Part shown: piece after piece, positions 2,289-52,518 of the stretch
How positions within the stretch are numbered: position 1 is the first letter of the stretch
Layout: every line of letters starts with the position of its first letter
IMG/VR virus record: IMGVR_UViG_3300046804_001782
Location: 1 to 64,000 of that record
Direction: 5' to 3' (one strand)
Origin: a virus
Length of the DNA: 64,000 nt
Position numbers and translations under genes: made by a program
The notes under the pieces: model-generated
Told to the model about the DNA's origin: nothing
Seen by the model: only the letters and a program-made list of their open reading frames with translations
Database searches by the model: none

Positions 2289-2485
2289 TCCTCAATGGCT
2301 TTTTCGTTACCTGCCCTGAGTGTAAGAAGTTGCACACAGCGGAGGTCAGACTCGTATGCACCTGTGGTGCATACGTCCCGACATGGGAGAAGCACTCTGA
2401 TGTTCCTACGAACATCAAAGCCATCATCCGCAAAGTTGTCGATAACTACGACAACATGAAGAAAATGGAGGAAGAACAATCATGA
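2285..2485 (+). CDS. Zinc-ribbon microprotein
   Basis: 66 residues with CPEC (10-13) and CTCG (26-29), the spacing of a zinc ribbon, followed by a charged helix ending KKMEEEQS. Coupled to both neighbours by ATGA overlaps. Such one-ribbon proteins often bind nucleic acids or RNA polymerase, but nothing here proves a target. Confidence 0.75.
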   Translation: MILNGFFVTCPECKKLHTAEVRLVCTCGAYVPTWEKHSDVPTNIKAIIRKVVDNYDNMKKMEEEQS

Positions 2486-2604
2486 ATTGGAGAAACCCTT
2501 ACGGGTATCTGCCGATGACAATCACCGTGTACGGACTGTATGGGCTGTTCGTGGTGTTGTTCGCCGTTGCCGTGGTGCAACGAGTCAAGGACAAGAGGAA
2601 GTGA
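2482..2604 (+). CDS. 40-residue single-pass membrane protein
   Basis: Reads MNWRNPYGYLPMTITVYGLY then a hydrophobic run (GLFVVLFAVAVV) and the basic tail QRVKDKRK, so one membrane helix with a cytoplasmic positive end. ATGA overlap with the gene before and GTGA overlap with the gene after make it a good fit in the chain, despite its size. Confidence 0.65.
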   Translation: MNWRNPYGYLPMTITVYGLYGLFVVLFAVAVVQRVKDKRK

Positions 2605-2885
2605 CGTGGGACTGCCCCGACTGTGTGTACGTCGGGGAACACAAGAACGAATGGGGAGTGTTCTCCCTTTTCGTCCACTATCGACCGGAGTACGACAAGC
2701 GGGAGATGGTGGCCGTCTATGGCTGTAATGACAGTGATTACCCTGATTACCAATCAGGGGAAGCCTGTGATTACAGACAAGCAGACAGAGATGGTTACAT
2801 TTCGCCCGTTCGTGTGGCATTAGAAAATGCCATCAAGTTGGGAGTTCCGGGGTTCACCCCGGACCTTATCAAGGAGGAAAGATGA
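2601..2885 (+). CDS. CxxC-containing protein of unknown function
   Basis: 94 residues from GTG 2601, which overlaps the TGA of the small membrane protein; AAGAGGA precedes it. A longer in-frame reading from 2487 would cover that whole gene in another frame and is rejected. N-terminal WDCPDC; later GCNDSDYPDY and an acidic middle. The C-terminus reads PVRVALENAIKLGVPGFTPD. No family recognised. Confidence 0.7.
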   Translation: MTWDCPDCVYVGEHKNEWGVFSLFVHYRPEYDKREMVAVYGCNDSDYPDYQSGEACDYRQADRDGYISPVRVALENAIKLGVPGFTPDLIKEER

Positions 2886-3082
2886 ATCCGAAATGGCAGG
2901 AAGGTGCGTGGTATACGCACATCAAGTATCCGGGGCGGCGGTTGCAGGTAACCAAAGTCATGGGAGACATGGCCGCTGGCTACGTCTACATTGGCATGGG
3001 CGAGTTCGGGAAGCGCCCATCGTGGTGGGCCATCACGCTGTCGCCAGAAGATTGGGATCTCTGTGAAGTTATTGCATCATGA
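2882..3082 (+). CDS. Trp-rich protein of unknown function (66 aa)
   Basis: MNPKWQEGAWYTHIKYPGRR at the start, AAGGAGGAAAG immediately upstream, ATGA overlap with the previous gene and with the next. A compact Trp/Tyr/Gly-rich beta domain is likely (GYVYIGMGEFGKRPSWW). No cysteine pairs or membrane segment. Confidence 0.75.
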   Translation: MNPKWQEGAWYTHIKYPGRRLQVTKVMGDMAAGYVYIGMGEFGKRPSWWAITLSPEDWDLCEVIAS

Positions 3083-3618
3083 TACCTGATCATATTCAGG
3101 AAGCGGTTGCTAGGTATCGACCGCACGTTATCCCTGATAACAGGGAAGTAAGGGCGGGGGATATCCGCAACATACGTACGATGGACGGTAAGTACAGTCG
3201 TCTTGGTGTTGTTCTAAAGGTGAACAAACCGAGGGATGGCTATCCCGACACCATCGCACAGGTGACTCTGCTGCATCCTTATACAGAGTTGGCAACTAAC
3301 AGTGACGTTGTAGTAACTGGGGATCATAAGACAGTCCCCTATAACGTCGTCGTTGAAACGTTCCTATTAGGAATCGTATGGTTGTCTCAGTTGGGTCCTC
3401 TCGTGGGGACCATAAGCGAAGAGGCACTTGATTGTTGTTGGTCTGATAACAAACAGACCGATAACTGTTATCGAGGTACTCATTTGGCCGGTTCTCTTGA
3501 TTCCCGGTGGACATTCAAAGAGAACGAATTTGATGAGTTTGCATTGTTTACCGAGGACTCCACTAAATATATCCTTGATGAAGCAGACAGGTATTCCAAA
3601 CAAAGGAGACAGTCATGA
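3079..3618 (+). CDS. Protein of unknown function (179 aa)
   Basis: The largest gene of the first 4 kb. The N-terminal half (RNIRTMDGKYSRLGVVLKVN) looks like an SH3/KOW-type barrel followed by QVTLLHPYTELATNSDVVV. The C-terminal half holds CCWSDNKQTDNC and is rich in aromatic and acidic residues. Coupled by ATGA to both neighbours. Not assigned to a family. Confidence 0.75.
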   Translation: MIPDHIQEAVARYRPHVIPDNREVRAGDIRNIRTMDGKYSRLGVVLKVNKPRDGYPDTIAQVTLLHPYTELATNSDVVVTGDHKTVPYNVVVETFLLGIVWLSQLGPLVGTISEEALDCCWSDNKQTDNCYRGTHLAGSLDSRWTFKENEFDEFALFTEDSTKYILDEADRYSKQRRQS

Positions 3619-6357: not shown

Positions 6358-7602
6358 ATGGTGTCTGCAAAGCACCTCCATCAGGGTATGGCTGTTGTTA
6401 TCAACAGTGGTACCCACGTGGGACGTACAGCCAAAGTCATTGATCCCGAGGTTGTTCCTGACGGACAACTCAACCAGCGTAAGGTGTTGGTTGAGATTGA
6501 TGACCCGGATAACCCGTGGCGTGAATGGATCATTCCAAAGCAGTTGGATGTTCCGGGTATGCACCGACCGACTACTAAGTGGTCAGCAAGGACGACTATC
6601 GTTGATATGGATGTAACTCCTATCACGTCTTTGGATGATCCATCATTGGATCAGTTTCGCCCTCGTGGTAAGAACCTGATGAAGAAGTATGTATCACGTA
6701 CTCTGCCGGGTGGCATCAAGGATATTGATGCTCTGATGAAGTATTGGAGTAACCGTGATGATAACGGATACTCACTAAACGTGGGTATGGTTGGCGATAC
6801 TCAATCAGGCAAGACCATGCTTGTGGATGTAATGGCTCACGTGGTCGCTAAGGAAATGGGACTCAGCAAGCCGCTCCCGGTGTTTACATTGTCCGGTTCC
6901 TCCGGTATCACCGATTACGACCTGTTCGGCCAGCCGAGACAAGCATCAGACGGAACCGACAGGCTAGTGTGGATGGAAGGCATTGTCGCTAGGGCGTGTC
7001 GTGTTGGCGGTATCCTGTACCTTGACGAGGTAAATGCCATGCCCGGTAATGTTACTAGTGCCTTGCACCCCATTACAGATGATAGGCGGCAGTTCGTAAA
7101 CCTCCGTAAACCTGTACCCGACGGTCATGGTGGGTGGCAACCTGAGGTTGTCAATGTCAACCCCGACTTGTGGGTTATGTGTACATATAATCCCGGCTAC
7201 TCCGGCATGTCCAAAACCAATGAGGCATTTGCTAACCGCTTTGAGTGGTTGCAATGGGATTACGACGAGGAAGTCGAAGCCAAACTCATCAAGTCTCCTG
7301 CTATTCGCATGTTGGGTCAGGCTCTGCGCCTCGCCCGTGAGACACGTGCCATCACCACCCCCGTCGGTACATCTGCACTCCAGCGTCTGGAGCGCAACCT
7401 TATCAACGTAAGCACCGAGTATGCCCTGTGGGCATTCATGGGTCAGTTTACCTCTAAGACTGAGAAGTCTAAGGTGGATGCAATCCTGACTGATCGTGGT
7501 ATCAAGGGCCTGCTGGAGGCAGAGTTCAATCCTCCCGAGGTCAATACCGACGTTGTCGATGACGATACAAACAACTATGCCCCAGATACACAAATTATCT
7601 AA
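6358..7602 (+). CDS. MoxR/CobS-type AAA+ ATPase
   Basis: 414 residues; AGAAAGAAAAGGA lies upstream. Residues 1-70 form a KOW/SH3-like barrel (GMAVVINSGTHVGRTAKVID). The AAA+ core follows: Walker A GDTQSGKT (146-153), Walker B ILYLDEVNAM (D223, E224), and the arginine-finger/sensor region around NEAFANRFEWLQW. The gap of about 70 residues from Walker A to B and the insert SGSSGITDYDLFG are typical of MoxR/CobS ATPases, which remodel or load partner proteins with VWA domains. The next gene encodes exactly such a VWA partner, 9 bp downstream. Likely a chaperone or metal-insertion-like machine; the phage substrate is unknown. Confidence 0.85.
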   Translation: MVSAKHLHQGMAVVINSGTHVGRTAKVIDPEVVPDGQLNQRKVLVEIDDPDNPWREWIIPKQLDVPGMHRPTTKWSARTTIVDMDVTPITSLDDPSLDQFRPRGKNLMKKYVSRTLPGGIKDIDALMKYWSNRDDNGYSLNVGMVGDTQSGKTMLVDVMAHVVAKEMGLSKPLPVFTLSGSSGITDYDLFGQPRQASDGTDRLVWMEGIVARACRVGGILYLDEVNAMPGNVTSALHPITDDRRQFVNLRKPVPDGHGGWQPEVVNVNPDLWVMCTYNPGYSGMSKTNEAFANRFEWLQWDYDEEVEAKLIKSPAIRMLGQALRLARETRAITTPVGTSALQRLERNLINVSTEYALWAFMGQFTSKTEKSKVDAILTDRGIKGLLEAEFNPPEVNTDVVDDDTNNYAPDTQII

Positions 7603-18904: not shown

Positions 18905-19271
18905 CCGTTGGATGAGGCTTGCCATCAAGCAGGCTCAATGGGCACCACATGACAAGTGGCGGGTTGGAGCCGTGCTGGTGAGGGGAGGTTCCGTCATCAG
19001 CACGGGTTACAACCGGTATAGAAACCACCCGGCGCAAGTAAATCTAGAGGGAATCTCTTACCACGCTGAGGAAGCCTGCATCATGAAGGCAGGCGACCCA
19101 CACGGCGCTACTATCTATGTAGCCCGTATTACCAAGAGTGGACTTCTTGGGATGGCAAAGCCTTGTGTAAGGTGCCAAGAACTACTTCTCAGTAATGGAG
19201 TTCGTGCTGTGGTTTACACCACACCTACGGAAATCATAAAACTGAGATCTTTGTACGAATTAGATGTTTGA
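18882..19271 (+). CDS. Zinc-dependent cytidine/deoxycytidylate deaminase-like protein
   Basis: 129 residues read from TTG 18882, which has AGGGAAGG 8 bp upstream and keeps the family-typical N-terminus DDRWMRLAIKQAQWA; ATG 18912 would remove it. HAEE (H61, E63) and PCVRC (C95, C98) are the zinc and catalytic residues. Likely deaminates a pyrimidine nucleotide to supply dUMP for ThyX. Last gene of the plus arm; its 3' end overlaps the converging glycosyltransferase gene by 12 bp. Confidence 0.8.
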   Translation: MKISKSDDRWMRLAIKQAQWAPHDKWRVGAVLVRGGSVISTGYNRYRNHPAQVNLEGISYHAEEACIMKAGDPHGATIYVARITKSGLLGMAKPCVRCQELLLSNGVRAVVYTTPTEIIKLRSLYELDV

Positions 19272-20321
19272 TAGGATGTCTATCCATCTGCGTGCCCCAA
19301 CGGACACATCTCTTTGTTGTACTCGTTCCCAGTTTTGCAAACTCTCATCACGGCGAACACTGTAATTTTGTAACGCCTTTAGGTGCTTAAGCCAATCGGA
19401 CGGATGTTTGGCTACACGACCAATGCCGTATGTCTTGTTTAGAGATATGTAAGAGTCTAGGTTTTGAGCGACAAAGGGGATGCCTGCGGCAGCGTACTCT
19501 AAACCTTTTATGTAACTCTTTGCTTGGTTGAACGGTACGTTACTCAAAGGAACTATACCTACATCCATAGTCAATGCTGATGGGTATAGATCAGCAGGAA
19601 GTAATCCTACTTTGTGAACTGATTCTTCCTCAACTCCGATAGTTTTGGCAAACGAGTCATGAACATCAGCATGACCAACATGCATTAGGGAGTATTGACC
19701 GTTTCGTTGCACTTGTTTGAGTACGGAGGCGACTGTCTCTAAATCACCACTTCTGTGGGCTGTAGAACCGGCCCATCCTAAAACAGGAACCGCTACATCT
19801 TCGTGAGTCTTCTTGGTAAACCGACTAATATCTACTGTGTTCTCAATCAGTACTATCGGTGCTTTTACAAATGAAGAAACCCTATCAGCAAGATAGGGTG
19901 TACTAACAGTAACTATATCTGAGTTGGACAGAATACCGCGGTAATGGTTAATGTTCTCTTTTATATTGTACTTAGGGTGAGATAACTTCCAAGCAGCATT
20001 TCTAGTGCTGAGTCCCCAGTACCAGTCATCTAAGTCATTTATTATCTTCTGACCATTAGCACGAGCCATTTTAATATGGCGAGCCAACCCATCGTGCATC
20101 AAGCGTTGCAATATGAGTACGTCTGGAACGTGATCGTTACCATCGTCGTCCGTGATTATAAAGCAAGAGTTTTTCCATGTTGGAAAACCTACTACTACTT
20201 TATATGGCATAAAGAACAGGTATTGACCTATGCGTATCCAGCCGCTTCCCCCCCAGTAAGCCTTGCCATCAGCAGACTTACTGGAGGGAATGCGATCAGC
20301 CGAGGCAATGCCTAGGATCAT
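19260..20321 (-). CDS. Glycosyltransferase (GT-B, group 1-like)
   Basis: 353 residues. The C-terminal half has the GT4-type fold signature: VPVLGWAGSTAHRSGDLETV, VGLLPADLYPSALTMDVGIVPL, and donor-binding SYIKGLEYAAAGIPFVA with the E-x7-E-like pair. The N-terminal half contains GGSGWIRIGQYL, reminiscent of acceptor domains. Last gene of the minus operon, overlapping the end of the plus arm. Together with the RmlB-like enzyme it could glycosylate DNA, virion or host surface; the target is unknown. Confidence 0.8.
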   Translation of the reverse strand: MILGIASADRIPSSKSADGKAYWGGSGWIRIGQYLFFMPYKVVVGFPTWKNSCFIITDDDGNDHVPDVLILQRLMHDGLARHIKMARANGQKIINDLDDWYWGLSTRNAAWKLSHPKYNIKENINHYRGILSNSDIVTVSTPYLADRVSSFVKAPIVLIENTVDISRFTKKTHEDVAVPVLGWAGSTAHRSGDLETVASVLKQVQRNGQYSLMHVGHADVHDSFAKTIGVEEESVHKVGLLPADLYPSALTMDVGIVPLSNVPFNQAKSYIKGLEYAAAGIPFVAQNLDSYISLNKTYGIGRVAKHPSDWLKHLKALQNYSVRRDESLQNWERVQQRDVSVGARRWIDILSNI

Positions 20322-22136: not shown

Positions 22137-23564
22137 TCAGTCAAGATTTATCACATCTTGTATAAAACGATCTGTATGTTTTCGATCTAATCCCCCACCG
22201 GGTAATTGCCGTGCCGTTTCTCCTGCCTTGGAACCAAACAACCGTGATAAAACCCCGCTACTTGCTCGTGCTTCTACCTCAAGTCTTACCATATCCCTAG
22301 TATCTGATATGTTTTTAAACTTATCAATAAGGCTGAACAATCTGTCCATCTCGGATGACAGGGCTGGATCCAATCCCTGCCCTTCCAGTTCTTCAGCGAA
22401 CCGGGCGAACAAAACACGACTTGCTTGCATCTCAATCATGGCTTGAAGCGTGGCCATGAGTTGGTCTTTAGTACGTATCTCCACGGGGAGTTTGTACCCA
22501 CAATCTGAATGTTCCTTGAATGCAGGGCAACGGGAGGACAGATAGCAATTATCGCACTGACGCACAGGGCTTGAGTTGTAGCGTATAACAGGCACCTCTT
22601 GGGGATCAATTTCTATTGATTCTCCCTGCTCAGTATCAGTAAATGAACCTGCTGTAACGATACGTTCTATACCCATTACCGGTAGCAATAAGCGTTCTTC
22701 GTCGTGCCGCTTTTCTAATGGGGCGATAGTAATACTTGACCTACGAGAATCCACAGGAAGGCGGGTATCTATTTCTTGGTCGATAGTAATTATCTCATCC
22801 CCAAACGTGTCACTAAACTCATCCTCATCGTCACCGTTTTCGGGGTCATAGGCCGAAAGGTTGCGTACTTCGTATTGTTGCCACGACTTTATGGCAAGAC
22901 TACCTATGGTGCTTACGTTGTCTTCTAACACCTCGTTATAGTCGATACCAAGTCGTATAATATCTGCTCTATGCTTTTTTCTACTGGATTCTTTTTGCTG
23001 GGCTGGATACCGTCGAAGACCGTGACCATCCCATACTTGGGTTTCACCGTAACGGATGGTACTTGTCCACGATGTGACCACGACGGCTTCCCAAGGGAGA
23101 GCCTCTATGATCTCAACCTTACTTGTCAGTCCGATGAGTACTGCTCCCCAGCGTTGAGAGAGCGACCTAATTCTTGGTAATGTTTTTGAATTAATCGCTT
23201 TATCAGATATGGCCACCCGTCCATACCGCTGGCAGATGTATGCCAACCTCTCTAAATCTTGATCATCAGACCATACGGGAACATACTTTTCCCCTAGCCA
23301 ATCGCCATCCATATCTGGTCGCCCTATTACAATGTCTATATTGTCGGCGTGTTCCCGTATGAAATCGGAATACCGGTTTACGTCCTCGTCACCTTCTGAG
23401 GTGTACACGAGAATGGAAGATGATCCAAAAGTTCCAGTTATAGTGAATTCTTTAATCTTTGGTATTGCTAGTTGGGTTATGTTTACAGCGATGTTTTCTA
23501 CATTATTGTGAGAAAGCAGACTCCTGTGCGAACCCTTTTCTCCACCACCTAGATAGACTCTCAT
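22137..23564 (-). CDS. Large protein of unknown function with Cys cluster
   Basis: 475 residues. N-terminus MRVYLGGGEKGSHRSLL and repeated beta-alpha elements (AVVVTSWTSTIRYGETQVW) recall the TIM-barrel of tRNA-guanine-transglycosylase-like (DpdA-type) phage proteins, though I cannot confirm catalytic residues. An acidic linker (~245-275) is followed by CDNCYLSSRCPAFKEHSDC, a four-cysteine cluster. The last ~130 residues are helical (QLMATLQAMIEMQASRVLFA; VLSRLFGSKAG). No partner genes for 7-deazaguanine synthesis are in the window. Confidence 0.7.
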   Translation of the reverse strand: MRVYLGGGEKGSHRSLLSHNNVENIAVNITQLAIPKIKEFTITGTFGSSSILVYTSEGDEDVNRYSDFIREHADNIDIVIGRPDMDGDWLGEKYVPVWSDDQDLERLAYICQRYGRVAISDKAINSKTLPRIRSLSQRWGAVLIGLTSKVEIIEALPWEAVVVTSWTSTIRYGETQVWDGHGLRRYPAQQKESSRKKHRADIIRLGIDYNEVLEDNVSTIGSLAIKSWQQYEVRNLSAYDPENGDDEDEFSDTFGDEIITIDQEIDTRLPVDSRRSSITIAPLEKRHDEERLLLPVMGIERIVTAGSFTDTEQGESIEIDPQEVPVIRYNSSPVRQCDNCYLSSRCPAFKEHSDCGYKLPVEIRTKDQLMATLQAMIEMQASRVLFARFAEELEGQGLDPALSSEMDRLFSLIDKFKNISDTRDMVRLEVEARASSGVLSRLFGSKAGETARQLPGGGLDRKHTDRFIQDVINLD

Positions 23565-31656: not shown

Positions 31657-32066
31657 TATTCCTCTCCCATTATGAGTTTCTTTATGTCTATAGAAGACGT
31701 TCCTTTACCCATATTATCAAGGTAGTCAATGTGTTGGGAATCAAAAAGATGTATCAAAGTAGCGATGGCATATGACGTAACAAATACTCTAGACGCTTCC
31801 TCTTGTTCATCATTAAAGTTATTAACTTTAGAAGTTGTTTCTACTATCCAGTTAGCACACTTATGTATTTCATCAATAATACCTAGATCAAAAAGTACTA
31901 GCCATTTAGAAAGTACGTCCATAATTTCATGCTTTTGTACGTCTTCTGACGGTATTGAGAATCCAGAAAGGTGTGCCAGTTCCTGACCATTTGTAATAGA
32001 AAGAGAAAGATGAAAGTTTCTTTTTTCCAAAGATTCATTTCGTTCTATTGGTGCATCTTCCATCAT
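31656..32066 (-). CDS. Helical protein of unknown function (136 aa)
   Basis: MMEDAPIERNESLEKRNFHL; beta N-terminus then several helices (ILVD-type MDVLSKWLVLFDLGIIDEIH; VFVTSYAIATLIHLF). Lies between polA and the zinc-ribbon gene; ATGA overlap with polA. Codon use looks like its neighbours. Not recognised. Confidence 0.65.
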   Translation of the reverse strand: MMEDAPIERNESLEKRNFHLSLSITNGQELAHLSGFSIPSEDVQKHEIMDVLSKWLVLFDLGIIDEIHKCANWIVETTSKVNNFNDEQEEASRVFVTSYAIATLIHLFDSQHIDYLDNMGKGTSSIDIKKLIMGEE

Positions 32067-34150
32067 TTTCCCTTTGCGTCAGACCAACTATGTGCGGAGT
32101 GGCAGGACACCTTGATAGGTATTCCCTCAATGACTGTCCCATCTCCCATCGCTTTTGTAAATATGGGAATCATATCAGCCACTTCCTCAGTAGGTACCAT
32201 AACCACCAGTTCGTCGTGTACTTGCACCAACATCTTAGCATTTGTATTATTAAATGCTTCAAATACACCTATCATTGCTTTTTTACAAATATCAGCAGCG
32301 GATCCCTGAACCACGGCGTTAATAGCCTGTCTTTCTGCACGTGCTTTTAGAGACATATCTGATGATGTGATGTCTGGAAGCCTACGTCGTCTTCCAGAAA
32401 TGGTACTCACATATCCTTGTCGGATGGCCGTGTGTATAACAGACTGTTTCCAAACGGTGATACCTTTAAACTGCTTGTAGTAGTTTTCGATCACAAACCT
32501 TGCATGATCTATAGAAACACCGGTGGTGTTTGCCAACTTAGTTGGTCCTCCACCATATGCTGTGAGGAAGTTAACACCTTTTCCCAGTTGTCTCTCTTCT
32601 GGAGTAACGTCTTTGGGATCCTTTTTCAGAATTAGGGCGGCGGCACCGGCATGGATGTCGGCACCAGTTTTAAAGAACTCGCTCATCTTTGGGTCGTGAG
32701 AAAACATGCACATTACACGCAACTCAATCTGATCATAGTCAGCAACTAACAGAGAGTAGCCGGGTGGTGCAACGAACAACTTACGAACACTACTGTCTCG
32801 TGGAATGTTTTGAAGGTTTGGGTTTGATGAGGACATACGTCCCGTTGTTGTCCTGTGGAGATGGAACGACGGGTGCAACTTTTGCTTATTAAGTTTTGTA
32901 AGAAGACTATCAACGTACGTTGATTTCATTTTCTTTGTTTCAGACCAATCAAGAAGCAAAGGAATGATTGGATGCTTTGCTTCCATAGCCCGTAGTGATT
33001 CCTCGTCAACGGAAGCAGCACCAGTTTTGGTTTGCTTACTTGACTTTAATCCTAAACCACCTTCTGATTTCTTAGAGAACAATAATTGTTGTTTATGTTT
33101 TGTGCTGTCTGGATTGAATCCGGGCGAAACGTAGGACAACATGGAAACAAGTAGATCATTTAGTTTCCCATCAAGTTCTTTGCCTAGTTTTGACATTGAC
33201 CTTTTGTCTACATTGATCCCATTATTCTCCATATCCATAAGAACATGGAGAACTTGATTATCCTGTTCTAGACAAGCCACAAGGTCTGGCTTTGTCTTTA
33301 TGCGATTCCACAGTTTTTTGTAGAGCAACCAAGTCCAACGGACATCTAGGTGTACGTACTCTGAGGCTTGAGCAAACGATACTTGATTAATTATCTTTCC
33401 AAGTTTTCCGTACCTGTGGTAGGGATCAAACCCGTCGAAGTTGTTGTGAAGCAATTTCTCCAAAGAGTAACCCGAAAGGTTTTCATCAAGGACGTGCTGC
33501 ATGAGCATGGTGTCCATGTATGGACCGGGGGGTAGAGCATCGTAATACTTAGTAATAGATCTAGCATCAAACTTTACGTTGTGCCCGATCTTTAAAAGAT
33601 CGCTAAAGAAAATTGTCTTCAATGTCTCAAAAACAACTGTCTTGTTTAGTTGTTCTGGTGGTTCGGTAAACTCGGCTGGTTTGTAGTACCGGGCTTTTGC
33701 CAGCGATTCCTTACCGCTTTTTAGGATGCTGCGATAACCCGGAGGTGGAACCGTACTACCATCACCACGTTCTTCTGGGGTGATTACCTTACCGTTCGGG
33801 TGACCCATAGGAATAGCCCATGATTTTCCATCAATGGCAATGCCTATCCAGAAAACCTCATTACGAAGGGGATCAAGTGCTAGTTGATTTTCCCACTTCG
33901 TTATTATTGTTTCTTTTGACCGTGCAAGTATGTCTGAACTAGTCGTTTTGAGACTCTTTTTATGTTCTTTCCACTCATCTTCAATGAGTGAAAGCACGTC
34001 CTGATGTCGTTCTACTAATCCGCGTGTCTCTACGTCAAAACAAAACCTACCTGCCTCTTGTACCTCTGCTACAACTTGCTGTAGTTGTTCAACTGTGTAA
34101 ACGACAAGGGGGGCCGTATGGCCCCCCTCGTTGGGATCCCCCACCGACAT
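32063..34150 (-). CDS. polA: DNA polymerase I (family A) with 3'-5' exonuclease domain
   Basis: 695 residues. Exonuclease: FDVETRG (D39, E41), KIGHNVKFDAR, DTMLMQHVLDE. Polymerase: TTGRMSSSNPNLQNIP, motif A LLVADYDQIELRVM, motif B RQLGKGVNFLTAYGGG, motif C MLVQVHDELVV. No 5'-3' exonuclease domain, as usual for phage replicative enzymes. Both exonuclease aspartates appear intact. The first 15 codons contain a strong hairpin (34107-34128). Confidence 0.97.
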   Translation of the reverse strand: MSVGDPNEGGHTAPLVVYTVEQLQQVVAEVQEAGRFCFDVETRGLVERHQDVLSLIEDEWKEHKKSLKTTSSDILARSKETIITKWENQLALDPLRNEVFWIGIAIDGKSWAIPMGHPNGKVITPEERGDGSTVPPPGYRSILKSGKESLAKARYYKPAEFTEPPEQLNKTVVFETLKTIFFSDLLKIGHNVKFDARSITKYYDALPPGPYMDTMLMQHVLDENLSGYSLEKLLHNNFDGFDPYHRYGKLGKIINQVSFAQASEYVHLDVRWTWLLYKKLWNRIKTKPDLVACLEQDNQVLHVLMDMENNGINVDKRSMSKLGKELDGKLNDLLVSMLSYVSPGFNPDSTKHKQQLLFSKKSEGGLGLKSSKQTKTGAASVDEESLRAMEAKHPIIPLLLDWSETKKMKSTYVDSLLTKLNKQKLHPSFHLHRTTTGRMSSSNPNLQNIPRDSSVRKLFVAPPGYSLLVADYDQIELRVMCMFSHDPKMSEFFKTGADIHAGAAALILKKDPKDVTPEERQLGKGVNFLTAYGGGPTKLANTTGVSIDHARFVIENYYKQFKGITVWKQSVIHTAIRQGYVSTISGRRRRLPDITSSDMSLKARAERQAINAVVQGSAADICKKAMIGVFEAFNNTNAKMLVQVHDELVVMVPTEEVADMIPIFTKAMGDGTVIEGIPIKVSCHSAHSWSDAKGK
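34107..34128. other. Strong GC hairpin within the first codons of polA
   Basis: AGGGGGGCC (34107-34115), loop GTAT, GGCCCCCCT (34120-34128): nine perfect pairs, coding around EGGHTAPL. It lies 25-46 bp after the stop of the SSB-like gene. It has the shape of a terminator stem but lacks a full T-run on the minus strand. It may lower polymerase expression relative to the SSB. Confidence 0.6.
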
Positions 34151-35355: not shown

Positions 35356-35779
35356 CTATGTATGCCTTCTTTTCAACAACCTTAAATGCCCACGTTACTT
35401 TTTCTTTATTAAAAGATTCAATGATAGGAGAGGCTTCTCTGTGCTCCCAAGCGTAAGCAAGCAGTTTATCTTCATCGACTACTTCTTTGAAGATCACGCG
35501 TTTTACATCATTAAAAATACCTTCTGACTTTGCCCACTGTTCCGCTGACTCTTCATCAAAGGATAGGGAGGAACGCCTTTCCTTTTTCAACTGCCTATTT
35601 CCTGCCGGGAGCCAGAGGTTTCCTTTTTCATCTGGTTGTCCCTGCTCATCGACAAGTCGTGTAAGAGCCTCTTTTAACTCATTCAGCCTAGTTGTAACCT
35701 TGTCCAACATAGATTTGGTATTTACATACTCTTCTGAGAGTCGCTCTATATCTTCTTTTGTGTACATGTTATGCCTCAT
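35345..35779 (-). CDS. Coiled-coil protein downstream of SNF2 helicase (minus arm)
   Basis: 144 residues; ATGA overlap with the helicase gene (an ATG at 35767 with GAGG in front is an alternative). N-terminal coiled coil (DIERLSEEYVNTKSMLDKVT), beta hairpin (GNLWLPAGNRQL), then ERRSSLSFDEESAEQWAKSE and a helical end. Same layout as the protein at 14056-14418, also downstream of an SNF2 gene. Confidence 0.72.
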   Translation of the reverse strand: MRHNMYTKEDIERLSEEYVNTKSMLDKVTTRLNELKEALTRLVDEQGQPDEKGNLWLPAGNRQLKKERRSSLSFDEESAEQWAKSEGIFNDVKRVIFKEVVDEDKLLAYAWEHREASPIIESFNKEKVTWAFKVVEKKAYIDES

Positions 35780-37329
35780 ATATTTGAAGAACGTAAAAAG
35801 GACGATAAGGTACTTAAGGTGATATCCATACCCCCACGTATGTCATGATGTTTACCATCAACAAACGCTTCATTTACAGATCGTTTATGTTGAAGCATGT
35901 CATATTGTCTTTCTTCAATACTTCCTTGCATCACAAACGTTGCAATAGTTACGTGTTCAAAGGTGGATGACAATCTGATAATCCTTGCTTCTCGTTGTTC
36001 TAGTTTGCCACTAGACCAAGGTAAGTCGTAAGATATTAAATAGTTTGCCATAGGTAGATCAACACCGTAACCACCGGCATCTGATGACAAAAACACTCTA
36101 ACATGATCGTCTGTAGAAAACTTCTGTTTTGCCACATCTTTTTCATCTGAAGACATATCTCCAGTGAACTTTACGCATTGTGTTAGTTTGTTAAGACGTT
36201 GTTCTATGATGTCTAGATTCTTTTTAAAGAAAGAAAACAATACAACTTTATTATTTGGTTCTTCTGAAAGAATCTGTTCTACGTAATCAACCACTGCATC
36301 AAGTTTTGGGGTCGCTGTAGTAGTAACCATGCCCTTTTGAACAATTGAATGAGCATAAACACTGCCCGCTTTTGATCCTGTTTCTTCTAATTGTTTTGCA
36401 GAAACTCTGATGAGGTCTGGATTGTCACAGAGCATGCGGAGCACGGTAAGGCGGGACATTATTTCCCCTTGAGCCTCATTTGAGGATGGGTCGTTGTAGT
36501 GCTTCCATAAATTAAAGCCTGCACCGTGTTTAGATACTGCTTGCTGCAATTGGTGAAGAAGGTCAGAGGATATAGAACGGTATAAAGCAGCACCTTGTAT
36601 ATCAAAAGGAACCGGTATCACTTGATGAATAATCTTTGGAAGTTGATCGGCAATCTCTTCTCTTGTTTTTCGTATAAGACATTCCGTCAATGATTTATGT
36701 AATACGTTAAGATTTTTATACCGGGTGGGCCTGCCAAAGTGATCACGAACTATAAAGGTGCGATCAAACTCTCTGAAATTTCCCAGAACAGATGGGTCTA
36801 CAAACTCCATAATACTAAACAACTCTTCAGGTTTATTCTCAATGGGTTGTCCAGTTAGTGCAAAACGATAGGGAACTGGTTTAGATAACTTTTTAAGAAA
36901 CCTAGATCTCTTGCTTGAGCGAGATTTTAATAAGGTTGCTTCATCAATGACCAAGGATTGCCATGTGTAGTGCTTTAGTTTTAACACGTCGCGCATCAAA
37001 GATTCTGGATTTACGATTATGTATTTTGTTGAGATGGAAGTTTTCCATAAACGATCTCTAACAGACGGACTGCCATCTATAACAATTACATTAGAATCTG
37101 TAAACTTTTCTATTTCCCGTTTCCACTGATACTTCAACGCCGCTGGAACAACCACTAAACAGCGGTCTACTTCACCTTGTTGAAAAAGTGTCTCAACAGC
37201 AGCAAGCGTTGTAACAGTCTTACCCCCACCCATAGTAATACCAAGAAGCATGGTGCCACGATCCACCATCTTGTCCACAGCCTCTTGTTGATACGGATAT
37301 AGGGTTCCTTTAAACACTAGGACACCCAA
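35776..37329 (-). CDS. SNF2-family helicase/translocase (minus arm)
   Basis: 517 residues. LYPYQQEAVDKMVDRGTMLL, Walker A MGGGKT (33-38), motif II IDEATLL (DEAT rather than the usual DEAH), motif III ALTGQPIEN, motif V/VI region SDAGGYGVDLPMANYLISYD and KLEQREARIIRLSS. Only distantly like the plus-arm helicase. Sits between primase and the coiled-coil protein in the replication operon, so a fork-remodelling or origin role is plausible. Confidence 0.88.
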   Translation of the reverse strand: MGVLVFKGTLYPYQQEAVDKMVDRGTMLLGITMGGGKTVTTLAAVETLFQQGEVDRCLVVVPAALKYQWKREIEKFTDSNVIVIDGSPSVRDRLWKTSISTKYIIVNPESLMRDVLKLKHYTWQSLVIDEATLLKSRSSKRSRFLKKLSKPVPYRFALTGQPIENKPEELFSIMEFVDPSVLGNFREFDRTFIVRDHFGRPTRYKNLNVLHKSLTECLIRKTREEIADQLPKIIHQVIPVPFDIQGAALYRSISSDLLHQLQQAVSKHGAGFNLWKHYNDPSSNEAQGEIMSRLTVLRMLCDNPDLIRVSAKQLEETGSKAGSVYAHSIVQKGMVTTTATPKLDAVVDYVEQILSEEPNNKVVLFSFFKKNLDIIEQRLNKLTQCVKFTGDMSSDEKDVAKQKFSTDDHVRVFLSSDAGGYGVDLPMANYLISYDLPWSSGKLEQREARIIRLSSTFEHVTIATFVMQGSIEERQYDMLQHKRSVNEAFVDGKHHDIRGGMDITLSTLSSFLRSSNI

Positions 37330-38237
37330 GGAGGCAACACTGTAGCGGTTTTTAAACCCTGCTCAATCTCGTCGTCGGTCATGTCCCCGATGTCTTTCGC
37401 ATCAGTAGACGAGTAATTCCACCAGCGTGTACCGCGACGAGGAGTTCCAAGGTTTTTCATGATTCTCTTACTGGCTTCCTTACCGGCCTTATCATTATCC
37501 ATTGCAATAATGATACTGTCAGCGATGGCCGTTAGCAATCTCAATTGCTGAGTGCTGACTTGTGCTCCAAAGGATGCCAGTGCTTGTGGTTTATCAAAAA
37601 CACCAGCAAAGCGTATAACGTCCAAAGGAGACTCAACAAGTATGGCAGTTTTACTGCGGAATCTTTCAATGCCAAATAACGTTGTACTCTTTTCTACTCC
37701 TATTGGGTAGTTTCTTACATGTCCGACTTTCTTTTCTTGCCAGCCACGGAGTATCCCTGTTGTGTCAAAAATGGGTATCGCCCATGATTTGTTCTGGGAA
37801 TTCCATCTAACTCCATAAGAAAAAACAATATCAGGGTCTAATCCCCTCATATAACATTTCTTATCAGACACTCGGCTAAAAGAAAAGAACTGGGTTGGAT
37901 CGAACTGGTGTTCTATTTCCTGTTGTTTAGGAGATAACAAACGATTTAAACCGTGAGTTACAAGCATCTTTTGAACACCAAAGGTATCAACAGAACCATT
38001 AGATAGTTCATTGATCAGCATGGACAATGTACCTCTTGCTCCACAAGAGAAACAAAGCCACAGACCTGATTCGGCGTTCATACTCCACGATGGGTTGGAG
38101 TCTTCATGTCCAGTAACTCTGCGGTGAACTGGGCATTTACCGGTGATTTCACGATCACCGGCCCTCTTTACAGCAACACCTAGATCTAATAAAACCGCTA
38201 GTAAATCAGTCGAATGATGGATTGACATCGTAGTCAT
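37317..38237 (-). CDS. dnaG: DnaG-type primase (zinc finger plus TOPRIM)
   Basis: 306 residues from the ATG at 38237 (GAGGT 9 bp before; ATGs at 38243 and 38228 are alternatives). CHC2-type zinc finger C35-x2-H38 ... C62-x2-C65 (CPVH, CFSC), then the TOPRIM domain ILVESPLDVIRFAG and SIIIAMDNDKAGKEA. No helicase domain, which matches the separate DnaB gene just upstream. Synthesises RNA primers. Confidence 0.9.
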   Translation of the reverse strand: MTTMSIHHSTDLLAVLLDLGVAVKRAGDREITGKCPVHRRVTGHEDSNPSWSMNAESGLWLCFSCGARGTLSMLINELSNGSVDTFGVQKMLVTHGLNRLLSPKQQEIEHQFDPTQFFSFSRVSDKKCYMRGLDPDIVFSYGVRWNSQNKSWAIPIFDTTGILRGWQEKKVGHVRNYPIGVEKSTTLFGIERFRSKTAILVESPLDVIRFAGVFDKPQALASFGAQVSTQQLRLLTAIADSIIIAMDNDKAGKEASKRIMKNLGTPRRGTRWWNYSSTDAKDIGDMTDDEIEQGLKTATVLPPWVS

Positions 38238-39459
38238 CACCATCTACCTCTTCAAATTCCATAGTGTTCCAGTCCCACTTGATGTGTACGACACCTGTTG
38301 GGGCTGAACGAGCAATGACTACTCGGATAATTGCTTGATCATCTAGATCTGGGTTTCTCTCAACGCCAAGAACGAGGTCTGCGTCCTGAGCAAAAGATGA
38401 CGAGTAGCCAATCGCATCAGCAGTTACTGCACGTGTTTTCTTATTATTAAGTTTCCAACCTAATACTTGTGTGGTAGCAACTACTGGAATGTCAAACCTC
38501 TGGGCCAACCGCTTTAGCGACCGGGTGATGTTGGTAAGAGCCTGTGGTGATCCCTTTGGTTCTCCTTCTTCATCATCCATGAGGTATACACCATCAACAA
38601 TGAGCAGATCAGGTTGGTATTCTTGCACCTTACTGGCCAAGGCACTAACAGTAGTTAGTGATGCCGTGTCTTCTGAAAAGACGAATGGTTGCATGTTCTT
38701 GCGTAGGGACAATGCCTTTCGTATCTTTTTCATATCTATGTCTGTGAGATCACCACTCAGGATCCGGGTATAGGGAACCTTAGAGATGAATGAGTCGTAA
38801 CGAGCCTCTTGCTCTTCGATGCTCATCTCAAAAGAAACAAACAAAGGACGCTTTCCATGTGTGTGGGCTGAGTTACCTATGATCAAAGCGAATAGAGACT
38901 TGCCTCGTTTAGGTTCTCCTACGAACACAATAAACTGTTGTGGGCGTAGACCATGAGTGATCCTATCAAGACCATGAAACCCAGTGGGAATACCACGCAA
39001 GGCATTGGGTGTTGCCCGTAACTCATCATACCTGATGAGTCTATTTTCCCAGTTTTGAATGATGTCGATGTCACGTAAGCGTGCTGACTCTACTGCTGTT
39101 TTTTGTAAGCCAGTAGTTAGTGTGGTTAAAGCACTATCAAGATCATCATTGTTGAGTTCAGGAATTGCTTCAGCAAGGGTGTCCATAAGGACACGCTTTT
39201 TGTAGTTGTTGAATATTTCATCAATAAGACGGGTAAATGGTTCGTCGGAAGCATCCTCTAAGTCAATGTCTCCAAACTCTTGTGAAAAGACACGTTCCGT
39301 AGGAACAGAACCATGTTCTCTGTAGAAGTCAAGTAACCAAGTCCATACCTTTGGCCATTCCCCACTGAGATGGTCTGGTTTTAATCCAGAACGTACGGCT
39401 ACTTGTATGTCTTTGTCATGTACGATTTTTGATATAAGAAGAAGTTCACTGGATGCCAT
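38206..39459 (-). CDS. dnaB: Replicative DnaB-type helicase
   Basis: 417 residues from ATG 39459 (TAATG overlap, GGGGAA upstream). N-terminal helical domain, linker, RecA-like core: GIPTGFHGLDRITHGLRPQQ, Walker A GEPKRGKS, Walker B LLIVDGVYLM, and DIPVVATTQ (motif 3). Unwinds the fork 5' to 3' as a hexamer; its loader is the DnaC-like protein at 39889-40473. Confidence 0.93.
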   Translation of the reverse strand: MASSELLLISKIVHDKDIQVAVRSGLKPDHLSGEWPKVWTWLLDFYREHGSVPTERVFSQEFGDIDLEDASDEPFTRLIDEIFNNYKKRVLMDTLAEAIPELNNDDLDSALTTLTTGLQKTAVESARLRDIDIIQNWENRLIRYDELRATPNALRGIPTGFHGLDRITHGLRPQQFIVFVGEPKRGKSLFALIIGNSAHTHGKRPLFVSFEMSIEEQEARYDSFISKVPYTRILSGDLTDIDMKKIRKALSLRKNMQPFVFSEDTASLTTVSALASKVQEYQPDLLIVDGVYLMDDEEGEPKGSPQALTNITRSLKRLAQRFDIPVVATTQVLGWKLNNKKTRAVTADAIGYSSSFAQDADLVLGVERNPDLDDQAIIRVVIARSAPTGVVHIKWDWNTMEFEEVDGDDYDVNPSFD

Positions 39460-39884
39460 TAGATTCCCCAAGACGTTAGCGGATCTACGGCAGTCGCACG
39501 TATTCCAAACATTTGTGCCAATTCTGTTGTTGGTACGTAAATAGTATGAAAACTAAAGTTGTAGCGGTACGCCTCTACTGCTTCAGCAAGACTATCAAAA
39601 GCGTATACCGGACAAGACACCCCACGACGGGTAAGCCATCTATAAACATCATCTTCCATGTGTGTTCCAAGAGTTGTGAACACAGCAGTAGTGATATCTA
39701 AACGGTTTGTTTGATCAATGAGAGTCTTTAGAGGAAGTTCATGAGCAACCCAACCTTTTAGGGTTGTGATGTCATCATTGGGACGGAACTTAAAAACCCT
39801 GCGCTTTGTTGGTGATGCAATAAGACCTTCAAATAAACAGGCACGTTCTGGACGCTCATAGATTGCTATGTCTCCACGTTCCAT
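39459..39884 (-). CDS. Protein of unknown function in the replisome operon
   Basis: 141 residues, MERGDIAIYERPERACLFEG. Alternating beta and helix (DITTAVFTTLGTHMEDDVYR; SCPVYAFDSLAEAVEAYRYN) suggests a small Rossmann-like fold, possibly HAD-like, but no catalytic motif is clear. Lies between the helicase loader and helicase genes. Confidence 0.65.
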   Translation of the reverse strand: MERGDIAIYERPERACLFEGLIASPTKRRVFKFRPNDDITTLKGWVAHELPLKTLIDQTNRLDITTAVFTTLGTHMEDDVYRWLTRRGVSCPVYAFDSLAEAVEAYRYNFSFHTIYVPTTELAQMFGIRATAVDPLTSWGI

Positions 39885-39888
39885 CAAG

Positions 39889-40473
39889 TCATCCTATCTT
39901 TATTATGGACATCTCATTAATACAACCGCTGACACGCTCACCGTATCGGCGTATGAAGTCAGTCACACCTATGGTAGTGGTTATGATCGTAGAACGCATG
40001 TCCTCGTCACGTTTGCGTATGAGGCTTCCAATCTCATGAACTGAGAAGTCAGTTTCTCTTTCATTGCCAACGCCATCCAACAGCAAAACACTGTAGACAC
40101 CACGGATGTATTTCAGAAGATGTGGGGAAGAATACATCTCTGGAAGAGAACCATCTCCCTCAAAAGAATCTTTGAGCATCTCAATGTACGTCTCGCTGCT
40201 CACGAAGCGTCCTGAGAGGTGGTGTGTACTTACCAATTGTTTTATAGCGCACTGGGCAATGGCGGTCTTTCCTGAACCGCTTGGACCGTGTAGGTACAAA
40301 GACTTTCCGTACTCGTAGGTCTTTACCCAATTGGCAACAGTCCTAGGTAACTCAATTTGTTGAGAACTCCATTTCTTTGGAATTCTTAAGTGAAAGAGTC
40401 GTTCTTCTGTTGAACGATTGTTCCACCACCGCTCTGATTTCCAATCAGTCGGAACCGGGAATTGCTGGGCCAT
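39889..40473 (-). CDS. DnaC-like helicase-loader ATPase
   Basis: 194 residues. Walker A GPSGSGKT (63-70), Walker B VLLLDGVGNE, sensor 1 STIITTTIG and RYGERVSGCINEM near the end, as in IstB/DnaC AAA+ proteins. Short N-terminal region instead of a large helicase-binding domain. Loads the DnaB-type helicase at the origin, which I place in the gene upstream. Confidence 0.88.
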   Translation of the reverse strand: MAQQFPVPTDWKSERWWNNRSTEERLFHLRIPKKWSSQQIELPRTVANWVKTYEYGKSLYLHGPSGSGKTAIAQCAIKQLVSTHHLSGRFVSSETYIEMLKDSFEGDGSLPEMYSSPHLLKYIRGVYSVLLLDGVGNERETDFSVHEIGSLIRKRDEDMRSTIITTTIGVTDFIRRYGERVSGCINEMSIIKIG

Positions 40474-40744
40474 CTAATTCCTCATTGTGGTACTCGTTGT
40501 TTATGATTTCCCAAAACTGAAGATCTTCTTCTATGAAGTCTTCATCATCAATATTGTCCATGAGACAAACTGCATCAATGGTTGTAATCGCAATTGTTGA
40601 ATCATCTGCGTCTGCCAAGAAAGGCATCTTCTCCACGAGGTATTCCTCAAAATCCTCTGGTTTTTCAAAGTTAGCAGTTAACCACTCAACAAATATAAGA
40701 AGTTCGTCAAGGTTGGAGAACTGGTATCCGATGTTGTCAAACAT
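40445..40744 (-). CDS. Acidic protein of unknown function (99 aa)
   Basis: MFDNIGYQFSNLDELLIFVE from ATG 40744 with CCGGAGGA upstream. Very acidic (DNIDDEDFIEEDLQFWEIIN). Overlaps the initiator by 8 bp and the DnaC-like gene by 29 bp. May be a replisome accessory. Confidence 0.65.
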   Translation of the reverse strand: MFDNIGYQFSNLDELLIFVEWLTANFEKPEDFEEYLVEKMPFLADADDSTIAITTIDAVCLMDNIDDEDFIEEDLQFWEIINNEYHNEELDGPAIPGSD

Positions 40745-41942
40745 GCATAGTCCTCCGGTATTGATAGATCGCTGACACAATAGTACCAGCAGATTCTCGT
40801 ACGTTCCCAGTCAAGAGGTCTTTCGGAAGAGAAAGGTATGACAAAGTACTAGTAAGTGATTCAATGTCATGAGTTTCCTTGCCAAGTTGTGTTTTGACAA
40901 GTGCATCCAGAGCACTTAGGTCGTTCAAGAATTCTTGATTCTTGAAATCTCCTGCCCATTTGTAAATGATACCAACCACTAATTCCGGGTATCTGTACAG
41001 TGATTCTAGGCACCGTGTGGTTACTCCTGTACGGAGGTACGAGTCTTGCACAATGTCCCAAGGCATGTCTAGGGAACCACGATCAAAGTCTGACAGCAAA
41101 AGCATAATTACTGGATCCTCGGTTGTAACCGAAGCGTTGATCCGTTCGATCAATACCTTTTGGATCTTCTTTGAAGCAAATCCAAGGATTGGGTTTTCGT
41201 AGGATGCAAATCTACTGTCATTTAAAAAGTTGTCAATCATTTTCTGAATAGTGTTTGCTGCCAAACCAGACTTCAATAGTGTCTTGAACGTTCTACGTAG
41301 GATACCAACGTCTGTGGGTGGGTAAACCCGCATGACATTGGATCTGTGATGTATGAATTGATTGGTAAGATCGTTAATCACTGTGTTTGAGATCTTGGAA
41401 ACAGTTTTTGTTGATTCTGGATCACTACCAATGATCATGTTTGGACCAACTTTCTGGCTGTCCCCAGCCTTCTTAATACTCTTATTTTTAATACTAGTAC
41501 TATATGTTTCTCTATGCAGTGACATTTCAGCAGGTAGATCTGTATTTTTGGGGGTGTTTATAGGGTCATGGGTGACCCCATACTTTTGGGTGTCAGGTAG
41601 ATCTATAGGGTCATGGGTGACCCCCTGTGGGGTCATGGGTGACCCCATAAACTTGTATTGGATGTGGTACTGGTTGACATTTTTTCCACCACTTCTTGTT
41701 ACTTTAACAACACCTTCCTGTTCAAGCCAATGCAACATTCTCTTCGTCGTTTCACACGACAAATTAGTATGTTCTGCAATTTGTTGAACAGTAGCGGTGG
41801 TTACTTTCGTTCTGATATTCATCAGATCCACTAGAGTACAGAGTATTTCTAATGCTGCACCTTTTTTTGCTTTCGCAATGCGGATGCGTGCCCATCGCGG
41901 TATCGCCAAAAAGGGGCCGTCAAACATGGGTGTGCTTTTCAT
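40737..41942 (-). CDS. Replication-initiator-like wHTH protein (lambda O type)
   Basis: 401 residues from the ATG at 41942 (a TTG at 41966 is possible). An N-terminal winged helix (~25-100: TATVQQIAEHTNLSCETTKR, MLHWLEQEGVVKVTRSGGK) is followed by a linker whose DNA contains three iterons, then a helical C-terminal domain. Gene order initiator, loader, helicase, primase equals that of lambda-like O/P and dnaA-type modules, and placing the origin inside the initiator gene is the lambda arrangement. First gene of the minus operon. Confidence 0.75.
   Translation of the reverse strand: MKSTPMFDGPFLAIPRWARIRIAKAKKGAALEILCTLVDLMNIRTKVTTATVQQIAEHTNLSCETTKRMLHWLEQEGVVKVTRSGGKNVNQYHIQYKFMGSPMTPQGVTHDPIDLPDTQKYGVTHDPINTPKNTDLPAEMSLHRETYSTSIKNKSIKKAGDSQKVGPNMIIGSDPESTKTVSKISNTVINDLTNQFIHHRSNVMRVYPPTDVGILRRTFKTLLKSGLAANTIQKMIDNFLNDSRFASYENPILGFASKKIQKVLIERINASVTTEDPVIMLLLSDFDRGSLDMPWDIVQDSYLRTGVTTRCLESLYRYPELVVGIIYKWAGDFKNQEFLNDLSALDALVKTQLGKETHDIESLTSTLSYLSLPKDLLTGNVRESAGTIVSAIYQYRRTMHV
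41470..41646. other. Putative origin of replication
   Basis: Three copies of the 17-bp dyad-containing sequence GGGTCATGGGTGACCCC flank an AT-rich block at 41471-41510 (mainly A/T, with runs TTATTTTTAATACTAG and ACTATATG). Iteron-plus-AT-rich block within an initiator gene is the architecture of lambda ori. The next genes encode loader, helicase and primase. The origin is inferred from layout only. Confidence 0.6.
41563..41646. repeat. Three 17-bp iterons
   Basis: Identical copies at 41563-41579, 41608-41624 and 41630-41646. Start-to-start distances are 45 and 22 bp, close to 4 and 2 helical turns, so all would face the same side of the DNA. Each contains GGGTCA-TGGG-TGACCC, an inverted repeat suitable for a dimeric wHTH protein. 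CAGGTAGATCT also occurs twice nearby. Confidence 0.9.
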
Positions 41943-41985
41943 GGGAGCATCCACTGTACCGTACAAAAAGATCTTCCGTCTACCG

Positions 41986-42015
41986 TTGTCATAACCACCT
42001 TCGATCCTGTATTGT
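41986..42015 (+). promoter_or_regulatory. Candidate promoter for the dps island
   Basis: TTGTCA (41986-41991), 18-bp spacer, TATTGT (42010-42015), between the divergent initiator and dps genes. A transcript would begin near 42022 and pass through the terminator-like hairpin at 42069-42112 before dps. Weak consensus; untested. Confidence 0.35.
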
Positions 42016-42068
42016 TTGAGAGTCGCTTCGTGGTGGTTGCGGCAACATGGTTATCCTTTCGGCAAAGG

Positions 42069-42112
42069 GCCGGGTCAGGCGGTACAATAAGTACCATCAG
42101 ACCCGGCTTTTT
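42069..42112 (+). terminator. Terminator-like hairpin in the dps leader
   Basis: GCCGGGTC (42069-42076) pairs with GACCCGGC (42100-42107), followed by TTTTT. An inner stem GGTAC/GTACC (42081-42085/42091-42095) sits in the loop. It ends 19 bp before the dps start, so it may attenuate dps or end plus-strand transcription arriving from the left. Confidence 0.65.
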
Positions 42113-42131
42113 GTTGTTCTATAGGATGTTT

Positions 42132-42566
42132 ATGAAAGACTTGATCAAGCAGTTGAAAGTTCTTATGTCAGATGTAGTAACTATGTACTTTCAAGCACAT
42201 GGGTACCACTGGAACGTAGAAGGTCAAGACTTTAGTCAGTACCATTCTCTTTTTGCTGACATTTATGAGGATGTTTACGGAAGTATTGATCCCATCGCAG
42301 AAATGATTCGTAAACTTGATGACTACGCACCATTTGGTCTACAGGAGTTTATTGACACCAGAACCGTTTCAGCGGCTAGTGTGGAGCCTGACCCCAAGGC
42401 AATGGCTAAAGCCCTTCTCAAGTCAAATGAGGGGGTTCTCAAGTCACTACAGAAGACCTTTGATTTGGCTATCAAGGCTGATAAACAGGGCGTTGCAAAC
42501 TTCCTTGCTGACCGTATTGACCAGCACGATAAATGGTCATGGCAACTAAAATCGTCTACAAAGTAA
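42132..42566 (+). CDS. dps: Dps/ferritin-like DNA-protection protein
   Basis: 144 residues from ATG 42132 (TAGGATG-type site upstream). Ferroxidase signature: YFQAHGYHWNVEGQDFSQYH, FADIYEDVYGSIDPIAEMIR with the D-x3-E/D pair at the subunit interface, and the helical end FLADRIDQHDKWSW. Usual Dps forms a 12-mer that stores iron and protects DNA from peroxide. Lies opposite to the flanking operons, with its own control elements. Confidence 0.9.
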   Translation: MKDLIKQLKVLMSDVVTMYFQAHGYHWNVEGQDFSQYHSLFADIYEDVYGSIDPIAEMIRKLDDYAPFGLQEFIDTRTVSAASVEPDPKAMAKALLKSNEGVLKSLQKTFDLAIKADKQGVANFLADRIDQHDKWSWQLKSSTK

Positions 42567-51561: not shown

Positions 51562-52518
51562 CTACGTTGTTTCATACATAATATTTATCCAACAAACATC
51601 ATTAGCAGCCATTGTAAAAGCAACGCTAGCAGATGCTGTATCAGACTGTCCTACTGACGCATCAAACTGACCAAGTGGGTTTAATTGTCTGAGTTCTAGG
51701 TTTGTTGATGATGTTACCCTAACGGTACCTCCGGTATAACCGACACCTTGGTTTAAGAATAAGCATTCTCCAATAACCGCACTAGCCCCTAAGTCTAGTA
51801 CTTTAAAAGCAGGTAAATCATTAGGATTTATAGCAATTGCTCCAGATGCAGACGATGTTTTATTTGCAACAACACGACATTGTGCAATAACCAGTTTTCC
51901 AATTTGTGTGTATCTTGCAAAGGATATGGTTTGATCGCCAGCCCCGGTGCCTAGTTCTACACCACCCTGTTTTAGTTTTGGTGTCCATGTAGACCATGCA
52001 CCCGGTGCAGGTCCTGTAGCCCCAGTAGCCCCAGTAGCACCTGTGGGACCTGTTACTGTGCTTGCAGCACCAGTTGGTCCAGTTGGTCCAGTTGAACCAC
52101 TAGCACCAGTAGGTCCTGTTACTGTGCTTGCAGCACCAGTTGGTCCAGTTGATCCAGTTGAACCACTAGCACCAGTAGGTCCTGTTACTGTGCTTGCAGC
52201 ACCAGTAGCACCGATAGGGCCAGTAGGGCCAGTAGGGCCAGTAGAGCCACCACTGTTTGGTTGAAAATCATTAATGATATATACAATTCTCGCCCTAGGA
52301 CCATCAAGTCCCACCAGTACCTGAGTGTCCTCAGTAGGAACACTCCACACACCATCAACAAGTGCTAGATAATCTTTGGATACCGGTAGATGTTCATCAG
52401 GTCCAAGAAGTTCTGGGATCTTTACAAGGACTTCACCAGTCGTTGAATCAGAACGAACGACAAGTGCTCTGTGAACATATATACCTGTCTTATGGATGTG
52501 TTCATTATTGGTATGCAT
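51562..52518 (-). CDS. Spike-like baseplate protein with collagen-like repeats
   Basis: 318 residues. The N-terminal ~85 ([40 protein letters not shown]) form an OB-fold of the gpV/gp5 spike type. Residues ~92-170 are G-x-y repeats ([18 protein letters not shown]) with repeated [15 protein letters not shown] blocks. The C-terminal ~145 form a beta trimer tip ([20 protein letters not shown]). Position between the hub and gp25-like genes fits a spike fused to a collagen-like fibre. Confidence 0.82.
52014..52256 (-). repeat. Collagen-coding tandem repeats
   Basis: Short GGNCCNGTN units arranged in three related blocks, each carrying ACTGTGCTTGCAGCACC. They encode Gly-x-y triplets and are prone to unequal recombination, so copy number may vary between isolates. 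Confidence 0.85.

Follow-up and report, generated by a model that had tools for sequence, protein, structure and literature searches.

Does the initiator gene of a contractile-tailed phage also contain the origin at which its product acts? The question is raised by a locus in the window, a 64,000-nt stretch of the 76,480-bp IMG/VR record IMGVR_UViG_3300046804_001782, in which a gene for a winged helix-turn-helix (wHTH) protein carries a cluster of identical dyads next to AT-rich DNA. A preliminary description took the interval 41470–41646 to be a likely origin of this kind. Judged from its sequence layout, the locus very probably serves a contractile-tailed phage as an initiator-bound replication origin that is located within the gene for the initiator itself.

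The central feature of this locus is an iteron array. The 17-bp dyad GGGTCATGGGTGACCCC is present in three identical copies with start-to-start distances of 45 and 22 bp, exactly as first described (Table 1). The complete 76,480-bp record has three copies of its 16-bp core, each of them in the initiator gene, and no match to the reversed control pattern. When up to three mismatches are allowed, the iteron still has three matches in the window, against 0.36 expected. Apart from these, the only 16-mers that the genome contains three times belong to a tandem repeat at ∼52049–52203, which comprises three units of ∼66 bp within an ORF at 51562–52518. The helical-phase spacing that had been attributed to the array holds roughly and not exactly, since 45 bp corresponds to 4.3 turns at 10.5 bp per turn. 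Spacings within the window's family fit a period of ∼11.25 bp (R = 0.96), and in the wider set of arrays no single period stands out (R = 0.63–0.69 over 10–12.5 bp). We describe the iterons as roughly phased, on their sequence, and keep nothing stronger.

The mechanical ORF of the surrounding gene starts at TTG 41966 (40737–41966, minus strand). Relatives begin at the position equivalent to the downstream ATG (MTTN.FQGPF or MGTSNVFGGRF), which we adopt as the start. The product matches phage replication-initiation families weakly but consistently (phrog_270, phrog_428, phrog_186 and phrog_678). Its matches to O-like PHROGs, with E values of 4.6e-8 for phrog_270, 9e-7 for phrog_428, 1e-4 for phrog_678 and 7e-4 for phrog_391, are mainly limited to the wHTH and the linker. 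AlphaFold places an N-terminal DNA-binding domain and a separate C-terminal domain on either side of this linker; the pLDDT of 72–93 across most of the wHTH domain, together with the HTH matches, supports the earlier assignment of the array to a wHTH protein gene. In the predicted model, the linker that joins the winged helix to the C-terminal domain is disordered and encodes the whole putative origin. A fold search of the PDB with the initiator returned generic wHTH structures only, below significance, and no significant match for the C-terminal domain, which we presume contacts the loader or helicase. There was no significant match of the initiator to named phage records (tblastn), and no match of the iteron array (blastn).

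Table 1. Coordinates of the putative origin, the initiator gene and the replication operon in the window
Feature	Position	Strand	Evidence or remark
Iteron 1 (first in gene direction), GGGTCATGGGTGACCCC	41630–41646	none	
Iteron 2, identical GGGTCATGGGTGACCCC	41608–41624	none	
Iteron 3, identical GGGTCATGGGTGACCCC	41563–41579	none	
AT-rich block, putative DNA unwinding element	41470–41512	none	purine-rich on coding strand
Short inverted repeat GGCTG-tccc-CAGCC	41456–41469	none	end of AT-rich block
Replication initiator gene, 401 aa from ATG 41942	40737–41942	−	PHROG matches, relatives' starts
wHTH domain, residues 16–94	41661–41897	−	AlphaFold, MarR/Crp-type HTH matches
Recognition helix, residues 63–75	41718–41756	−	AlphaFold model
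Lys67 codon in recognition helix	41742–41744	−	best discriminator column for iteron class
Disordered interdomain linker, residues 99–181	41400–41648	−	AlphaFold pLDDT < 50
All-helical C-terminal domain, residues 186–399	40746–41387	−	AlphaFold
111-aa ORF, function unassigned	40445–40780	−	weakly conserved in relatives
DnaC-like helicase loader	39889–40473	−	phrog_50 (E 1e-18), phrog_3277
142-aa ORF, function unassigned	39459–39887	−	
DnaB-type replicative helicase	38206–39471	−	PF03796 (E 2e-35), phrog_19 (E 2e-66)
DnaG-type primase	37317–38243	−	Toprim, Zn_ribbon_DnaG, phrog_47
SNF2-type helicase	35776–37329	−	
PolA-type DNA polymerase	32063–34150	−	phrog_17 (E 1e-120)

Past the iterons in the gene direction, the next conspicuous feature is the AT-rich block. 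The block reported beside the iterons is confirmed: AT makes up 80% of the 45-nt window at 41470, and 0.16% of the genome's 45-nt windows reach this level. In 12 of 17 members of the family, the 40-nt stretch with the highest AT content in the entire gene starts 45–53 nt past the last iteron, and GC3 in the block averages 0.29, against 0.51 for the genes, GC-rich members included. Of 47 distinct array genes, 39 have the higher AT content 3′ of the array (p = 6e-6). The interval first proposed for the origin encloses both the array and the AT-rich block and leaves the inverted repeat just outside. Several relatives have an inverted repeat at the same place with different arms (GCCGC/GCGGC, GACCGC/GCGGTC, GTCGC/GCGAC and GCTCCC/GGGAGC), and in L031, L034 and L035 the arm is 16 bp long. 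A 5-bp arm is absent after the AT-rich block in four or five members, so that the inverted repeat is the less certain part of this tripartite layout.

The initiator is followed in its operon by the DnaC-like loader, DnaB and primase, as described previously, with small uncharacterized ORFs flanking the loader. The contractile tail sheath and the PolA-type polymerase are confirmed, and the phage also encodes a UvsX-like recombinase. The proposed parallel with the lambda O/ori arrangement is supported by conservation of the dyads at the DNA level (see below), the AT-rich block, the position in the linker and the loader, DnaB and primase operon. In the model we favor, each GGGTCA/TGACCC dyad would be bound by the winged helix of the initiator, probably in dimeric form and with the recognition helix lying in the outer major grooves. 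Once loaded, the array would strain and open the adjacent AT-rich block, whereupon the C-terminal domain would recruit the DnaC-like loader with DnaB, and synthesis would be started by the phage primase and PolA. We infer that the site acts in this way as the origin, or the main origin, in infected cells.

Origins inside initiator genes are already known as a type from lambda and SPP1, to which the window's array very probably adds another case. The lambda origin, in the middle of the O gene, comprises a 40-bp AT-rich region and four dyad iterons to which O binds as dimers (PMC7466680, PMC5043065, PMC6022878). The window shares with lambda O/ori-lambda, and with its Stx-phage variants, the in-gene position, the dyad iterons and the AT-rich region on their 3′ side, as well as a helicase loader in the initiator's operon (the next gene in lambda). 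Unlike lambda, it has a different iteron sequence, a DnaC-like AAA+ loader in place of lambda P, and phage-encoded DnaB, primase and PolA in a contractile phage; several members have the extra short inverted repeat past the AT-rich block. In SPP1, oriL lies inside gene 38, which is followed by loader and helicase genes (PMC6316719). This Bacillus phage system (gp38/oriL) likewise combines repeats with an AT-rich unwinding element in the gene for the origin-binding protein, with a loader and a DnaB-type helicase (gp39, gp40) following. The SPP1 repeats are direct repeats, and SPP1 has a second copy, oriR, whereas the window's iteron is found at one place only.

No signal at 41.5 kb is seen in GC skew, whether raw or computed from third codon positions. 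The raw cumulative skew has its maximum at 19.7 kb and tracks gene orientation, so that a skew minimum elsewhere, which had been named beforehand as an outcome speaking against an origin here, is uninformative as an origin test; third-position skew does not differ between minus-strand genes to the left and right of the locus (p = 0.78). The array might instead be an origin that maintains a plasmid-like prophage and does not serve lytic replication. There is precedent in RepA of mycobacteriophage Miko, which can be deleted without effect on lytic growth; an origin within or beside the mycobacteriophage gene was suspected in that study, which found no repeats (PMC7157519). The UvsX-like recombinase could also support another mode of replication late in infection. 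We nevertheless regard a maintenance origin as unlikely, given that the loader, DnaB and primase encoded by the phage itself stand in one operon with the initiator. It is very unlikely that the dyads are operators, through which autoregulation or a roadblock would control the replication operon while replication starts elsewhere. Winged-helix-bound dyads are also used by repressors, initiators of iteron replicons often autoregulate, and the array lies ∼300 bp into the operon. However, the site is within the gene and not at its promoter, and an array of three or four copies with a fixed 3′ AT-rich block follows the plan of an origin, not that of an operator.

Loci of relatives, collected via the DnaB sequence, also bear on how the array is read. 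The initiator homologs are 25–40% identical to that of the window, compared with 58–80% for most of the DnaB sequences. In every homolog whose linker is complete, this same region contains three or four dyads, with start-to-start spacings of 22/23, 33/34 or 44/45 bp. The arms are AGGTCA/TGACCT in L027 and GTGTCA/TGACAC in L032; in both, the change affects the two arms of all iterons, which is what recognition of the whole set by one protein would produce. Translation of the dyads uses two frames, with GSPMTP from one and VTHDP from the other, which shows conservation of the repeat as DNA and not as a peptide repeat; a third frame would read the TGA of TGACCC as a stop. VTHDP does recur in the linker of many members, but a protein-level repeat (GVTHDP) with the DNA repeat as its by-product is scarcely credible in view of these two frames, of spacings (22, 23 and 34) that are not multiples of three, and of a linker that is otherwise unconserved and predicted to be disordered.

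We scanned the 2.9 million contigs of IMG/VR for two GGGTCA-YSSR-TGACCC dyads 3–33 nt apart. The pattern matched 26 contigs, with the dyads inside a wHTH initiator ORF in 25; in the remaining contig, L062, a 102-aa O-like wHTH ORF ends just upstream of them. The 25 come mostly from the window's family and include three unrelated genes (L058, L063 and L066). Occurrence of the iteron at many unrelated loci had been named as evidence that would speak against an origin; the scan shows the opposite, since in all 26 contigs it is in or beside a wHTH initiator. Dyads of a different type, AGTCA....TGACT, form dense arrays in L180, L362 and others, with up to eight cores in L180. None of these A-type arrays (34 contigs) falls within a recognizable wHTH ORF, and they were used as a negative control.

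The recognition helix of the two odd members differs at one place, with ETVKR replaced by TVIR (GTGTCA) and TVQR (AGGTCA). TVIR also occurs in L037, and its dyads are of the GTGTCA type, as was predicted before the scan for GTGTCA and AGGTCA arrays. These alignments suggest, with somewhat better than even confidence, that in phage initiators with in-gene iterons position 67 (the variable residue of S.ETVxR in the recognition helix) reads base 2 of the half-site N1N2GTCA. The pairs would plausibly be Lys or Arg with G, Asp or Glu with C, and Ile or Met (sometimes others) with T. In well-aligned genes, Ile predominates in GTGTCA arrays and Lys is found in all GGGTCA arrays, and the residue-67 column separates these two classes best among 67 columns. 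A relaxed filter yields exceptions, with Lys in 4/22 GTGTCA clusters and in an AGGTCA cluster; the residue/base counts given here use this filter, the stricter initial one having removed the exceptions. An arm-agnostic scan suggested that C at base 2 pairs with Asp/Glu; this was set down as a prediction before new scans were made, and the eight new C-type clusters from them have Asp/Glu in six and Gln in two.

The tally covers 42 clusters at 50% identity. Where base 2 is G, Lys/Arg occurs in 11/11 clusters (Lys 10, Arg 1); where it is C, Asp/Glu occurs in 10/12 (Asp 7, Glu 3, with Gln in the other 2). With T at base 2, Ile/Met occurs in 9/19 clusters (Ile 7, Met 2), the others having Lys (3), Arg (3), Gln (3) or His (1). 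The mutual information of residue 67 is 1.11 bits, against a null mean of 0.30, and none of 20,000 permutations is as high; no other alignment column comes near this value. Among 267 arrays, 118 fall in an ORF recognized by the wHTH profile, and representative array genes of different classes each independently match "replication initiation" families. The association is correlative and the tree cannot prove independent changes: over 63 columns it is poorly resolved, with 13 base-class changes on the best tree, of which well-supported branches force only 2. In the usual chemistry, Lys and Arg contact guanine, acidic residues the cytosine amino group and aliphatic residues the thymine methyl. 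A search of the open-access literature found no report of such a rule for phage initiators, which does not in itself prove its absence; this is possibly a new DNA-recognition rule, and the part of the analysis that a specialist might not expect. If true, the origin specificity of uncultured phages would be readable and testable from sequence alone, because every gene carries its own target. A gene that encodes both a DNA-binding protein and its sites is a self-documenting protein-DNA pair, with hundreds present in viral metagenomes; direct tests of initiator specificity, of origin incompatibility and of how new specificities evolve thereby become possible, through a residue/base-pair swap in a laboratory replicon.

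A similar arrangement is found in the Arthrobacter phages Altadena, Bumble, Bolt007 and Klevey, in which a wHTH (RepA-like) initiator adjoins the genes for an ssDNA-binding protein and the loader, and a tandem repeat in the linker is followed by the most AT-rich 40 nt of the gene. Unlike the GGGTCA dyad of the window, their repeat is CCCCCTCAAAACCG- or CCCCCTGAAAACCG-like, with copies ∼24 bp apart. In the Arthrobacter phage loci L169–L172, the gene that holds the ∼24-bp direct repeats (∼2450–3440) is annotated as a RepA-like initiator or HTH protein; these intragenic repeats and the AT maximum are apparently unannotated origins. The nearest cultured phages by DnaB and tail sheath are the Streptomyces phages BRock and Alone3 (L070, L071 and L072), which share the DnaB-primase-SNF2 order and keep the loader (DnaC) gene. 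The stretches of BRock and Alone3 that we read contain no recognizable wHTH initiator, which counts against the origin reading; their initiator, if any, may have been replaced. No DnaB relative was confirmed in genome_contigs, and a host is therefore not assigned. The window's contractile-phage family, so far seen only in environmental contigs, is placed by the origin reading in the lambda/SPP1 class, with putative origin coordinates given to within a base.

Upstream of the initiator, a leader (41975–42112, minus strand) separates it from a divergent Dps/ferritin-like gene at 42012–42566 (plus strand; PF00210, phrog_3636). In several relatives, the leader contains a long hairpin with unrelated stem sequences, at 42069–42107 in the window, followed by a small hairpin with a conserved loop, AGGAGAACCACCAAC, and a variable stem. 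In addition, several members have ACCACCAAC at the start codon of the initiator. The loci covered were the window, L018 (4250–4430), L024, L027, L031, L032, L034, L035 and L065. Rfam at gathering thresholds gave no match for the window and four loci, and we consider the hairpins a candidate regulatory RNA. Elsewhere, the window encodes a queuine tRNA-ribosyltransferase-like protein (22137–23564, minus strand), a glycosyltransferase (19260–20321, minus strand) and a protein matching a PHROG named porphyrin biosynthesis (6358–7602, plus strand).
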